Shown: positions 21,366 to 27,302 of the stretch, one piece after another
Layout of the letters: every line of letters starts with the position of its first letter
Numbering within the stretch: the first letter of the stretch is position 1
Assembly: GCF_025291715.1 (NCBI RefSeq)
Contig: NZ_JAMBIZ010000027.1
Span: 1-52,352 of the forward strand
Length of the DNA: 52,352 nt
Direction: 5' to 3'
Origin: Metasolibacillus sp.
GTDB lineage: Bacteria; Bacillota; Bacilli; Bacillales_A; Planococcaceae
Position numbers and translations under genes: made by a program
The notes under the pieces: generated by a model
Seen by the model: the letters and a program-made list of their open reading frames with translations, nothing else
What the model was told of the DNA's origin: nothing
The model's database searches: none

Positions 21366-21971
21366 TCACTCTAAAAGTCGTTGCTCCTTAATAATGTCAA
21401 GCACCGCTTCGCGCGATGTCGCACCTAACACTTGAAACAGCTGTGACCAATAACGCTCAATTGTACGAACAGATGTATGCAGCTTTACTGCCATTTCTTT
21501 ATTTGTTAACCCTTCTTGCAGCCAAGAAAGAAGCATTTTCTCCTTAGCTGTCAATTCAATATCGTCTCGACTAAAATGAATGTAATCGAGGAAATCTGTT
21601 GGTATTAACATAAGTCCTTGCATTGCCGCGCGAATTGTTTGAATTACTTGAAAGCGCGTTGCCATTTTTGACACGACCCCATCCACCCTCTTTTCAACAA
21701 TAAGTGAATAATAATTTGTCGGGTCATCCCCCGTATATAAAATGACACGTGCCTTTGTGTGCTCTTTAATTTGCTGCGCTAAAGTAATACCATCAGATTC
21801 CCCTAAATTCACATCAAGTAAATAAACATCATAGTCATTTTCAGCTAATTGATGCACGACGTTTGTCGCCTGTAATTCTGTATCGATATGAATATCGTCA
21901 GCTGATTCCATTAATCGCTTTGACCCTTCCAGCACGATTGGATGGTCATCTACAATAAGCACCTTAATCAT
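21366..21971 (-). CDS. ComA-like LuxR-family response regulator
   Basis: 201 residues. Receiver domain with D8, D9, phospho-acceptor D53 (LLDVNLGESDG) and K102; C-terminal LuxR-type HTH from about 138 (LTAKEKMLLSWLQEGLTNKEMA). Its start overlaps the kinase stop by 8 bp. Size, architecture and the ComX-like gene two positions upstream make ComA the closest named analogue, although competence control is not implied. It is the probable DNA-binding output of the pheromone circuit and a candidate to bind the half-site arrays at 24672 and 25195. Confidence 0.78.
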   Translation of the reverse strand: MIKVLIVDDHPIVLEGSKRLMESADDIHIDTELQATNVVHQLAENDYDVYLLDVNLGESDGITLAQQIKEHTKARVILYTGDDPTNYYSLIVEKRVDGVVSKMATRFQVIQTIRAAMQGLMLIPTDFLDYIHFSRDDIELTAKEKMLLSWLQEGLTNKEMAVKLHTSVRTIERYWSQLFQVLGATSREAVLDIIKEQRLLE

Positions 21972-24183
21972 CTTCCACAGACCCTTCTATGATAATATGA
22001 ATAAATACACCTTCATTTACATTTGCCTCGATACGACAATAGCCATTAAATGCCTCTACTCGTTCTTTAATCCCTCTTATACCTAGAGAGTCCGTTTGTA
22101 GCATTTGTTCCAGCTCACAGCCCATTCCATCATCCTCATAGATTAATTCAAAGCCTTCATCTAATTCCTGTAAAGAAAGTGTTACCTTTGTTGCGTCAGA
22201 ATGCTTTAAGGCATTATTCAGCAGCTCCTGTACAATGCGATAAATGACTAAAGGTAGCTGTTCATGCTGTAAATAAACACGCTCAAAGGTTGTACATAAT
22301 TTGAATTTTGCTTTGTTACTTACTTGTTGGGCTAATTGGCTTAATGCTGCTGTTAAACCAAATTTGTCTAATACAGGTGGTTTCAATGTCTCACAATAGG
22401 CTCGTAAATCCTGCACATTATTATGCATTTGCTCATACAACTCTTGTGCTGAAACGGCTGTTTCATCTTCTACTAACAAGCCTATTTCACGTGTGAGGTG
22501 TGTTAAATTTTGTAATACTGTATCATGCAGCTCTTGTGCTACATAATACTTTTCTTGCTCTACTTTTAGCCATACGAGCTTCTTTAACCATATAGGCTCC
22601 TGCTCCGCTGTTTGCTGTAAGCTTTGCAGCTCTCTTAATAGCTCTTCAATTTTTTTCAAGCTTTCAATAGCACTTCCTGCATATTTCAACAAAAGCTTTA
22701 GCCATAGAAGCTCCTCATCCTTTAAGCGGATTGTTCCTTGATGTTCAATAAGTAATAGCCTTTGCATATGCGCCTCTTGATGAATAAGCGCTACATATAC
22801 ATTAGATAGCTTGATAATTTCTCCAGCATGCAACTGCTGCATTTGTTCATCTGTCATAATACATTCAGCAGGTCTGCTACTTCCATCATTATTCACAATC
22901 TTGATATTTTGAATTTCTAAATGCTTAGCTGCCTCCTCCTTTAAAATGGAAAGCAACACCTCTACGCGATAAGCAATGCTCATTTGATCAATTACTTTGG
23001 ATAGCTGCCGTATCGTATTCCCCTTTGGCGTAAATAATATATCTCGATATTTCGCATCTACTTTTTCTTTTATATAGAAAAATAGCAAAATGGAAATAAA
23101 TAAAAAAACAACAAGTATTCCATTTGGCACATTGTCCATTAAGAAATATAGCCCTAGCCACAGCCATATCGTTAAAGCAGATGTCACGACTAAATAATAG
23201 CTTGTTCGTGTAATATAGTAATGAATATCAAATAAGCGCTCTGACACACGTAAAAACATAAAACAAAATGGAATTAAAAGAACAAATAATATACTGTACT
23301 CTGCCTCTAGGATCGGGCGTTGTCTAATTACTTCAGGCACGACAAATAACAATAAGAATGGTAAAAACGGCAAAATTACGCTTAAAATTAATAAGCGTAA
23401 TTGTATCAGGCGTGTTTTATAATAGCCGTGTAGTAATATCCATAATGAACAAGCGAAGAGTAAGAATGATGTTGTTAATATAATTAAAGAAGTAGTATTT
23501 CTTAAAAATGGATAGACTATTTCAACACCACCTAGTACAGCACCTATTACTGGTAATATGTATAACATTTCAATGCGCTGTATAAATGTCCACTTAATAT
23601 GTAAATAACGATAATAGTTTTGCAAAAATTGCAATAATACTAATGGAGCAAGAAGAATTCCTCCATTTGTTACGATACCACCTAGAAGATTAAGTTTACT
23701 AGAAGCTGTGCTACTTAAATAAGCTAATGCAATTGTTAATATAAAGAGAATCAGCCATTTCATGCTTGCAATATCTTTTTGTCTTTTATATAGATAGAAG
23801 CCCGCTCCTAAAGATAACACAAAATAAATAATTGGTAAGATAACATGTAAATAAAATTGCGCAGGCAAATCTTTATGTAATATTTCAATTTTCTTTATTG
23901 TACCGTCCTGTTTTTGAATCGTCAGCTCATTAGCAGCTCTTATAGAATGAACATATATAATTGTGGATATTTCGTTAATGGGCACACTATCAACATTTAA
24001 AATAACATCTCCTACTTCAATGCCTTGCTCTGCTGCCCATTTTTTATAATATGGAGCTTCAACAGCCCATTGCTCATGTTGCTGCTGAAGCTCTATTTTA
24101 ATTAAAGGTTTATGATAAGCGACAATAGATAAATAAATAGCAATCCCTACATAAAGTATAAAAATGAAATAGCGCTTTTTCAT
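21964..24183 (-). CDS. ComP-like membrane histidine kinase with PDZ-like segment
   Basis: 739 residues. An N-terminal helix, a PDZ-like segment (about 55-105, containing GIEVGDVILNVDSVPI), then seven or so membrane helices up to about 380, a linker, a HisKA_3 domain with the phosphorylated H553 in ELHDTVLQNLTHL, and a HATPase domain (ELLNNALKHSDAT, DDGMGC, LGIRGIKERV). B. subtilis ComP has the same order of parts and 769 residues. The stop overlaps the regulator start, and the gene follows the ComX-like gene by 3 bp. Its likely signal is the processed ComX-like peptide. Pairing with that peptide is inference from gene order. Confidence 0.8.
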   Translation of the reverse strand: MKKRYFIFILYVGIAIYLSIVAYHKPLIKIELQQQHEQWAVEAPYYKKWAAEQGIEVGDVILNVDSVPINEISTIIYVHSIRAANELTIQKQDGTIKKIEILHKDLPAQFYLHVILPIIYFVLSLGAGFYLYKRQKDIASMKWLILFILTIALAYLSSTASSKLNLLGGIVTNGGILLAPLVLLQFLQNYYRYLHIKWTFIQRIEMLYILPVIGAVLGGVEIVYPFLRNTTSLIILTTSFLLFACSLWILLHGYYKTRLIQLRLLILSVILPFLPFLLLFVVPEVIRQRPILEAEYSILFVLLIPFCFMFLRVSERLFDIHYYITRTSYYLVVTSALTIWLWLGLYFLMDNVPNGILVVFLFISILLFFYIKEKVDAKYRDILFTPKGNTIRQLSKVIDQMSIAYRVEVLLSILKEEAAKHLEIQNIKIVNNDGSSRPAECIMTDEQMQQLHAGEIIKLSNVYVALIHQEAHMQRLLLIEHQGTIRLKDEELLWLKLLLKYAGSAIESLKKIEELLRELQSLQQTAEQEPIWLKKLVWLKVEQEKYYVAQELHDTVLQNLTHLTREIGLLVEDETAVSAQELYEQMHNNVQDLRAYCETLKPPVLDKFGLTAALSQLAQQVSNKAKFKLCTTFERVYLQHEQLPLVIYRIVQELLNNALKHSDATKVTLSLQELDEGFELIYEDDGMGCELEQMLQTDSLGIRGIKERVEAFNGYCRIEANVNEGVFIHIIIEGSVEDD

Positions 24184-24345: not shown

Positions 24346-24611
24346 AATTAATCCGCCTCATTTCATCATTTTTAGTAAGTATGTTTTTATATGAGAAGCT
24401 GTTATATGCTTTCGATAGATTGCAATAAAACATCAACAATATCAAAAGCTAAAATTAAGAAGCTTTATCGTTGCTGCCATATCATAAACTTATGCATTAA
24501 TGCTACTAATTACTCATTAAAACTATTTTCTAAAGCGACTATTTTTTCCTACGTTGCTTTTATAGGGCTATGCTAGCTTGATATTCTCTTGCATTGTGTT
24601 AACCTCTTCTC

Positions 24612-24640: not shown

Positions 24641-24671
24641 TGTATATAGATATTTTTTATTTTTTGGCAAT

Positions 24672-24756
24672 TTGGCGGGATATTGTCGGTTACCGACAAA
24701 AAATTGACGGGATGTTGGCGGAATAATGGCGGTGCACGGATAATATTATTTATGAT
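24672..24756 (+). promoter_or_regulatory. Phased half-site array with promoter, copy 1
   Basis: Half-sites: TTGGCGG 24672, TTGTCGG 24683, its inverted partner CCGACAA 24693, TTGACGG 24704, TTGGCGG 24715, ATGGCGG 24726. The direct half-sites are 11, 21, 11 and 11 bp apart, so all lie on one DNA face. The middle pair forms TTGTCGG-TTA-CCGACAA, similar to the B. subtilis ComA site TTGCGG-N4-CCGCAA. The last half-site supplies TGGCGG as a poor -35, 18 bp before a TATGAT (24751-24756). It points away from comX, to the ORF remnant at 24814. Confidence 0.8.
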
Positions 24757-24813
24757 ATGCTAAAAGCACTCTAGGGGTAAAACATTTGCTATAGCTAAAA
24801 ACAAATTTATTAA

Positions 24814-25041
24814 GATGATTTTCTCAACTTAACGCTGACAGAAGAAAATATCATTATTGATAAAAATGTTTATCTTCAAATGATGAATGATCCTTTACCG
24901 CCTGACAAAATTCAGCAGTTTACTGTTATTCAAGGAGCTACGAATTCTTATTTGATTGAAACGACTCCAGGTAAAACAAAAATAAAAATTATTAATATGC
25001 AAGAAATGCCTGATGAAGTAAGAACGTATTTTATGGAATAA
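24814..25041 (+). pseudogene. Remnant ORF behind array copy 1
   Basis: 75 codons open from just after an in-frame TAA (24811-24813) to TAA 25039. The translation has a sensible composition (LTEENIIIDKNVYLQMMN, then PDKIQQFTVIQGATNSYL, then EMPDEVRTYFME) but no start codon with a ribosome-binding site; the first methionine is 27 codons in. It lacks a signal peptide, unlike the two genes behind array copy 2. It looks like the tail of a decayed gene that had the same promoter type. No family recognised. Confidence 0.5.
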
Positions 25042-25194
25042 AAGGGCTAAATCAACAAGTCACATGCATTTATTATCCAATTACATCCAATAAAATTAAG
25101 TAAAAGAGAGATTCTCATGTACAGTTGTTAGTTACCACACAAACAATTACGAAATGAACCAGAAAGTGTAGATATATTTTTAACTTTCAGTGAT

Positions 25195-25279
25195 TTGGTG
25201 GATAATTGTCAGTTACCGACAAAAAAAGTGGCGGTATGTTGGCGGAATAATGGCGGTGCCTAGTTAAAATATTTATGTT
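25195..25279 (+). promoter_or_regulatory. Phased half-site array with promoter, copy 2
   Basis: TTGGTGG 25195, TTGTCAG 25206, inverted CCGACAA 25216, GTGGCGG 25228, TTGGCGG 25239, ATGGCGG 25250. The spacings match copy 1 to within a base, and the block TGTTGGCGGAATAATGGCGG is identical in both. The last half-site lies 17 bp before TATGTT (25274-25279). It is 54 bp upstream of the secreted-protein gene at 25333. Confidence 0.8.
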
Positions 25280-25332
25280 AAGCTAAATGCAACCTAGGTA
25301 TAAATCAACGAGAAAGGCATTTTCTGTAAATC

Positions 25333-26595: not shown

Positions 26596-26633
26596 GCTGA
26601 AACTAATGTATCAATACAAACGAGGTAAGCATT

Positions 26634-27302
26634 ATGATCGAAATCCACAAGCTTAGCAAATCTTTCGCATATTCATCAGGACACATTAACATTTTACATA
26701 ATATTTCTTTAACGATTGAAAAAGGAAAATGGTATACAATTATTGGTGATGCGGGCACAGGAAAAACAATATTTCTAGGCTGTATCGCAGGATTACTGAC
26801 GCCAACTAAGGGAGATGTATTGTATGATAATATTGCACTTTATCAATTAAGCGATAAAGCTCGAAGTAATTATCGCCGAAAACATATTGGTTTTGTCTAT
26901 CAAAACTTTAAATTCCTACCGCATTATTCCATAGTGGATAATGTGATTTTACCGTTTATTCATGATGAGCCGAGAAAAACATTATATCCGAAAGCGTTAA
27001 CCTTATTACAGCAAGTTGGCATTCATGCTGAATTATTTGAATGCTTTCCTGAAGATTTATCGTCAGAAGAAAAATATCGCGTAGCAATTGCTCGTGCGCT
27101 CCTTGGTAATCCGAGTGTCCTTATTATTGATGAGCCAACAGCTTATTTAGATGCACAGGCATGTTATGAAGTATTAAATTTATTATCATTTTATCGCAAT
27201 CAGGGACAAACGATTATTATGGCCACACGTGATAAAGAAGCAGCGCAGCTTAGCGATTATACATACAAGCTAATTGACAAACAATTAGTGCAAATAGATT
27301 AA
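26634..27302 (+). CDS. ABC transporter ATP-binding protein, LolD/MacB-like, without adjacent permease
   Basis: 222 residues. Walker A GDAGTGKT (about residue 39), Q-loop VYQNFKFLPHYS, signature LSSEEKYRVAIARAL (the usual SGGQ reads SSEE), Walker B VLIIDEPTAYLD and a switch region where the usual histidine is replaced (MATRDKEAAQLSD). The size and Q-loop fit the MacB/FtsE-type class that works with FtsX-like permeases, but no permease lies on either side. GAGGTAAG precedes the ATG. Replacement of the signature and of the H-loop histidine suggests weak or altered ATP hydrolysis. Confidence 0.85.
   Translation: MIEIHKLSKSFAYSSGHINILHNISLTIEKGKWYTIIGDAGTGKTIFLGCIAGLLTPTKGDVLYDNIALYQLSDKARSNYRRKHIGFVYQNFKFLPHYSIVDNVILPFIHDEPRKTLYPKALTLLQQVGIHAELFECFPEDLSSEEKYRVAIARALLGNPSVLIIDEPTAYLDAQACYEVLNLLSFYRNQGQTIIMATRDKEAAQLSDYTYKLIDKQLVQID

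Follow-up and report, generated by a model that had tools for sequence, protein, structure and literature searches.

The window analysed here, a stretch of 52,352 nucleotides of Metasolibacillus DNA, contains two helically phased arrays of half-sites, and each array, with a probability that we put at roughly 0.8 from the sequence comparisons below, would be a site at which the neighbouring ComA-type response regulator activates transcription. The arrays are thus very probably ComA-controlled quorum promoters, a variant of the known ComA switch. A sequence-only reading of this DNA had proposed ComA-type sites beside a ComX/P/A set, with phased and promoter-proximal half-sites, and this part stands, as does quorum control as a probable reading; the proposed new design and the position given to the -10 element do not.

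Each array is composed of five direct TTGNCGG-type half-sites and one inverted partner, at positions that the window sequence confirms (Table 1). The direct half-sites follow each other at steps of 11/21/11/11 bp in array 1 and 11/22/11/11 bp in array 2, the inverted repeat of array 1 reads TTGTCGG-TTA-CCGACAA, and the separation of 523 bp between the arrays was likewise confirmed. Because the two regions (24647-24784 and 25169-25307) are 79% identical over 140 aligned columns, we regard them as a duplicated promoter.

Table 1. Coordinates of the arrays, the predicted promoter elements and the genes discussed; positions are those of the window except in the last two rows, where the locus is named
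Feature	Position	Strand	Basis or remark
Array 1	24672..24732	+	direct half-sites 24672, 24683, 24704, 24715, 24726; inverted partner 24693-24699
Array 2	25195..25256	+	direct half-sites 25195, 25206, 25228, 25239, 25250; inverted partner 25216-25222
Predicted extended -10 of array-1 promoter, TGATATGCT	24753..24761	+	conserved position in array alignment; gap 23
Predicted extended -10 of array-2 promoter, TGTTAAGCT	25276..25284	+	conserved alignment position; gap 22
ComA-like response regulator, presumed array binder	21366..21971	-	Pfam Response_reg E 9.5e-18, GerE E 6.9e-10
ComP-like membrane histidine kinase	21964..24183	-	HisKA_3 and HATPase_c above Pfam cut-off
ComX pheromone precursor, 52 aa	24187..24345	-	Pfam ComX PF05952 E 3e-10, 40.2 bits, cut-off 25
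comQ remnant, four in-frame stops (2 TAG, 2 TAA)	24450..24578	-	47% identity to G004 ComQ
Small ORF behind array 1, 53 aa	24880..25041	+	no Pfam family; gene status doubtful
Small protein, first gene behind array 2, 135 aa	25333..25740	+	signal-peptide-like N terminus (by eye)
Small protein, 108 aa	25744..26070	+	signal-peptide-like N terminus (by eye)
Small lipoprotein-like protein, 132 aa	26146..26544	+	weak lipobox and lipoprotein matches below cut-off
ABC-transporter ATPase	26634..27302	+	best NCBIfam matches LolD, FtsE and lactococcin-972 exporter, all below cut-off
Second locus, G000 C35	L074 7242-10825		comQ full-length, comP and comA broken
Second-locus comQ, G002	L170 7207-8115		full-length

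The arrays are non-random. With at most one mismatch per half-site and steps of 10-12 bp, the window holds two chains of six half-sites, and simulation over 40 Mb produced none of that length: Markov-1 sequence with the composition of the whole window (20 Mb) gave one chain of four and none longer, and 20 Mb simulated with the local composition gave no chain above three. Similarly, when steps of 9-12 bp were allowed, 13 chains of at least four were present in the 964,381 bases of the window plus 60 fetched loci, and three Markov replicates yielded eight chains of three and none of four. A separate scan for any phased word returned 29 places with at least four copies against 3 in the null, several of them inside genes.

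The ComX/P/A-like set that had been proposed to lie beside the arrays is borne out by Pfam matches to all three genes. The ComA-like protein combines a receiver with a GerE/LuxR helix-turn-helix, the latter aligning with the B. subtilis ComA chains 2krf and 3ulq and having RTIERYW as its helix where B. subtilis ComA has RSIEYSL; its gene and that of the ComP-like kinase are adjacent and on the same strand, and the kinase has full-length counterparts in the four other genomes of the genus. The ComX precursor has a tryptophan next to its C-terminal residue and ends in YWK. An array adjoins this comXPA set in all five genus genomes, across which the adjacent ComA (201-205 aa) is 84-100% identical. 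The non-randomness of the arrays together with this constant neighbourhood argues for the adjacent ComA as their activator. We considered that the arrays might instead serve another NarL/GerE-family regulator, or an unrelated one, and be accidental neighbours of comXPA, since phased direct half-sites are also used by DegU, AgrA and the plantaricin regulators. This is unlikely, given the neighbourhood in five of five genomes, the occurrence of phased arrays upstream of comQ at some loci in other genera, and a half-site and 11-bp step close to the ComA direct repeat published in PMC4797271.

Half-site searches and a promoter model, R1, together located 18 sites in the five genus genomes; weak R1 matches at L075 7180 and L078 9691, which have no half-site array, and fragments of known arrays were excluded from this number. 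Arrays common in genomes without a ComA-like protein, which the sequence-only reading had named as evidence against itself, were not observed: a series of three exact direct half-sites with 11-bp steps was located five times, in three of the five genus genomes, and in none of the 195 other genomes of the family (reverse control, one place), 44 of which have a ComX match (49 of 200 family genomes overall). A stricter triple pattern was present in 4 of 398 genomes of a class-wide sample, one being the window's own; the three others, among 397, have it at one place each. R1 was trained on 10 of the 13 arrays known at that stage (all but G004_8560, G003_C90 and G004_C3b) and at E <0.001 matched 14 places in all five genus genomes, 10 of them its training sites, and none in the 195 other family genomes. 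One site, G001 C6, gave a strong model match with poor half-sites. At E 0.001-0.01 the model also matched in 6 of the 195 non-genus genomes, and the weak site in L213 therefore counts little by its score.

The arrays share a promoter end as well as half-sites. In 10 of 10 aligned arrays the T, A and final T of a TANNNT element are invariant 22-23 bp past the last half-site, with TG upstream of it in eight, and over all sites the element stands at this distance in 16 of 18. Because R1 contains the -10, the five sites found with it are not independent of this element; among the 13 arrays found without use of the -10, TANNNT is present at 22-23 bp in 11, or in 9 of 11 when G000 C12 and G003 C222, whose degenerate last unit was chosen with the -10 spacing in view, are dropped, and two of the 13 have no -10 at the common position. 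That the spacing is kept in arrays found without it further supports activation by the adjacent ComA. The -10 boxes named earlier (TATGAT and TATGTT, 17-18 bp past the last half-site) are present in the window and are not the conserved element, which means that the -10 had been set ∼5 bp too near. With the conserved -10 at 22-23 bp, the last half-site is placed just upstream of a poor -35 hexamer (three of six matches to TTGACA in both window arrays, by eye, with a 17-bp spacer) and not at the -35 itself. A CCTAGG palindrome lies just after the array-2 -10 (25293-25298), with TCTAGG behind array 1 (24770-24775); the palindrome is exact in 7 of 10 aligned arrays and reads CCCATGGG in L169. As a genome-wide motif it was rejected (32 places in five genomes, 7 of them at arrays; reversed control, 73).

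Variation within the arrays proceeds by about whole helical turns. Direct-to-direct steps, counted only between 10 and 12 bp, are 11 bp in 41 of 50 cases and 10 bp in the remaining 9. In five of the six arrays that end with a 10-bp step, the gap to the -10 is 23 bp (the sixth, G004_8560, has no -10 there), so that the second-last half-site keeps its distance; array 1, with a step of 11 bp and a gap of 23 bp, is an exception. Both halves of the inverted repeat are present in 10 of the 18 sites, the outer half is missing in 5 and the inverted partner is absent in 3. In the 10 complete cases the first half of the inverted repeat starts 31, 31, 32, 41, 43, 43, 43, 44, 64 and 64 bp before the start of the last half-site, that is, at the shortest distance and at about one and three turns beyond it.

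These measurements also bear on whether the arrays are simply 11-bp tandem repeats that arose by slippage and have no regulatory role. The direct run of G003 C256 does read like an 11-bp tandem, and two genomes of the same species carry different numbers of units; set against this, the units vary in their spacer and free base, one unit is inverted, the distance to the -10 is nearly fixed and one array region has diverged less than the sequence around it. An origin without function is therefore extremely improbable, and slippage may be the route by which arrays grow. The conserved region is the orthologous array of G000 C12 and G003 C222, which is 93.2% identical over 221 bp, compared with 82-89% for six other aligned stretches of the two loci, and this difference again favours the adjacent ComA as activator. 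In alignment A1, MAFFT misplaced several arrays.

Comparison of the window with G002, a genome of the same species, revealed a break in the match next to an array. A 95% match breaks off at 24733, a single base beyond array 1, and is taken up again (92%) at 26612, just before the exporter gene; G002 has only 122 bp in between, which contain its promoter and the final two of its five direct units. This stretch aligns at 77% with array 2 of the window (25232-25287), and thus resembles it no better than array 1 does, for which reason an origin by recombination between arrays is possible rather than firm.

The genes behind the arrays point to a common kind of output. Small secreted-type proteins are encoded behind array 2 of the window and behind the arrays of L075, L081 (8346), L167, L168, L169 and L209; a lipoprotein-type protein follows the arrays of L213 and L212, the latter with a secreted-type protein further behind; and an ABC ATPase follows those of L076, L079 and L081 (4532). 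Behind the L078 array lies a C-terminal piece of the L075 protein, behind that of L077 the contig ends, the array at L081 8560 faces the next array, and no clear target was found behind those of L210, L211 and array 1 of the window, where the 53-aa ORF has no relative in the fetched loci. The 135-aa protein matches no Pfam family at its cut-off and no NCBIfam family, and has a counterpart behind an array in G003 (L167); the 108-aa protein, 28% identical to it, has a 77% counterpart in L167, and its structure prediction from two rows was poor (mean pLDDT 49.6). Proteins similar to the 132-aa lipoprotein-like protein, a candidate immunity protein, occur in L167 and L213. Relatives of the ABC ATPase lie near arrays in G001, G002 and G004 and also in L167. 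No target reached the Pfam or NCBIfam cut-off of a bacteriocin family, the best hint being that of L168 to NF053514 (E 0.0055, 17 bits versus a cut-off of 40), and a lactococcin 972-type bacteriocin was rejected because neither the 135- nor the 108-aa protein matches the Lcn972 family in Pfam or NCBIfam. By their context, the targets would be bacteriocin-like.

The window locus contains no intact ComQ isoprenyl transferase; there is a remnant only, whose match to the intact G004 ComQ covers residues 3-45 of the latter (E 3e-4). The first-locus comQ is intact in G004, broken in G003 and, by eye, a fragment in G001, and it gave no match in G002; it is therefore not intact in four of five genus genomes, which may alter signalling. 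A second comQ relative, full-length and 41-43% identical to the G004 query, is present at another place in each of the five genomes, in G000 on C35. In G001 and G004 this second locus has full-length comP and comA genes; in G003 there are a 671-aa comP ORF and a full-length comA, G000 has comP split over two ORFs and a comA fragment of 83 aa, and within the 15 kb fetched for G002, the only place where ComA was sought, there is comQ only, with a transposase-like ORF nearby. The window's species (G000 and G002) thus has a first locus of comX-comP-comA without comQ and a second comQ without an intact partner regulator, and the simplest reading is that the distant ComQ may serve the local ComX in trans. 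ComX-ComP pairs with no comQ or comA detected in the fetched stretch by single-query phmmer at E 1e-5 were also seen in L088, L095, L098, L099, L102, L104, L106, L110, L111, L112, L114, L115, L116, L117 and L118.

The second locus supplies another conceivable binder, because three of five genomes (G001, G003 and G004) encode a full-length ComA there. That the arrays are bound mainly by this protein and not by the adjacent one is nevertheless very unlikely. No intact second-locus ComA was found in G000 or G002, making the adjacent ComA the likelier candidate, and the recognition helices differ (RTxESxL in the second-locus proteins versus R[T]IERYW in the adjacent ones), as do the proteins overall (41-42% identity between the adjacent ComA and the second-locus ComA of G001 and G004). 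Further, TTGNCGG chains upstream of the second-locus comQ comprise one half-site at most in five of five genomes, which also argues for the adjacent ComA as activator of the arrays; TTGCGG chains there reach two half-sites at most. A general rule pairing ER[YH] recognition helices with TTGNCGG half-sites and ENN helices with TTGCGG was rejected because the second kind is represented by L084 alone and many ER[YH] loci have no array near comQ.

Elsewhere, phased arrays lie upstream of comQ in 6 of 40 loci with comQ (L081, L093, L096, L108, L119 and L084; not all independent). Those in other genera have alternating half-sites (L096 9216, L108 9035, L119 6562, L093 9319 and L084 10125), with a phased word of TTGCGG type in L084. 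In genus g11, phased alternating half-sites are found just behind comA (L089 from 5208; L090 3876-3937), ahead of a gene that by eye resembles 3-oxoacyl-ACP synthase III. A palindromic cluster of four TTGNCGG half-sites in L085 (from 9554; G114), followed by genes for an ABC ATPase and several membrane proteins, was set aside because it lies away from comXPA, and L101 and L103 because their array is behind comA, beside a terminator-like hairpin. The small share of loci with arrays upstream of comQ is counted against the ComA reading, as are the differences in half-site and spacer, the incomplete inverted repeats, the two arrays without a -10 and the non-intact comQ.

The scheme that we infer, from phosphorylation, binding, cooperativity and activation to the action of ComQ in trans and a bacteriocin function, would run as follows. 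With the local comQ gone, ComX would probably be isoprenylated by the ComQ of the second locus; extracellular ComX pheromone would activate ComP, which would phosphorylate the adjacent ComA. ComA dimers would then occupy the inverted repeat and, cooperatively and on one face of the helix, the neighbouring direct half-sites, the innermost of which, just upstream of the weak -35, would set ComA against RNA polymerase at the extended -10. The output would be a dispersed regulon of small secreted proteins, lipoproteins and ABC exporters, so that crowded cells would switch on small secreted proteins together with their exporter. A broader joint reading, which we offer tentatively and consider possible though doubtful, combines a polymeric ComA platform whose unit number sets the threshold or steepness of the response, repeats that serve as joints for cargo exchange, as the G002 match that stops at 24733 and resumes at 26612 suggests, and a pheromone matured in trans. 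If it is true, unit number, changing by about whole helical turns, would set the quorum response promoter by promoter, and a ComQ that outlived the comP and comA of its own locus would mature the pheromone of another; a pheromone locus could then rely on a modifying enzyme encoded at a distant genomic site. The arrays form a natural promoter series, with a varying number of half-sites and a nearly fixed promoter end, in which the effect of site number on the quorum threshold could be measured, and they would provide a sequence tag for the ComA regulon, of which no study for this genus was found in the searches made. Among the papers listed in them, no title or abstract opening described such arrays in Metasolibacillus or Lysinibacillus.

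Pheromone-controlled bacteriocin promoters of the plantaricin type contain paired direct repeats and are controlled by a LytTR-type regulator. The Metasolibacillus arrays are like them in that their direct repeats are spaced by roughly one helical turn and precede genes for small secreted proteins, antimicrobial ones in the plantaricin case, and unlike them in that the regulator is of the NarL/GerE type and the repeats form runs rather than pairs. Among the comQXPA loci outside the B. subtilis clade, passages of PMC4008528 describe two Lysinibacillus species with two loci each; as there, ComX, ComP and ComA are encoded side by side in the window, but the local comQ has decayed, and operator arrays were not found in those passages.

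The closest relative is the ComA site of B. subtilis. According to the sections of PMC4797271 on these promoters, ComA binds TTGCGG-4-CCGCAA as an inverted repeat and TTGCGG-5-TTGCGG as a direct repeat, the latter with an 11-bp step and beside a poor -35 and an extended -10; binding is cooperative, and pel has an upstream cluster of direct repeats. This combined use of inverted and 11-bp-step direct repeats is a further reason to regard the adjacent ComA as activator. Consistent with that core module, the window has an 11-bp-step direct repeat downstream of the inverted repeat (24704/24715/24726), a poor -35 and a predicted extended -10, and that the arrays would work like it is well supported. 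An identical site is ruled out by the TTGTCGG-TTA-CCGACAA repeat of array 1, which differs from the B. subtilis-type inverted repeat (two TTGCGG, 4-nt spacer): compared with the sites in those sections, the spacer is 3 nt instead of 4 nt and the half-site, TTGNCGG instead of TTGCGG, is one base longer. The arrays had been called a new design, a description that does not hold as such because inverted and direct repeats, the 11-bp step and the pel cluster are already in PMC4797271. In the genus arrays, the inverted repeat is followed by between two and five direct half-sites in phase with one another, and usually a further one stands ahead of it; new here are how long the direct run is, the way it varies by about whole turns, and the use of a TTGNCGG half-site, and this suggests that the principle of joining an inverted repeat to direct repeats reaches beyond B. 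subtilis.
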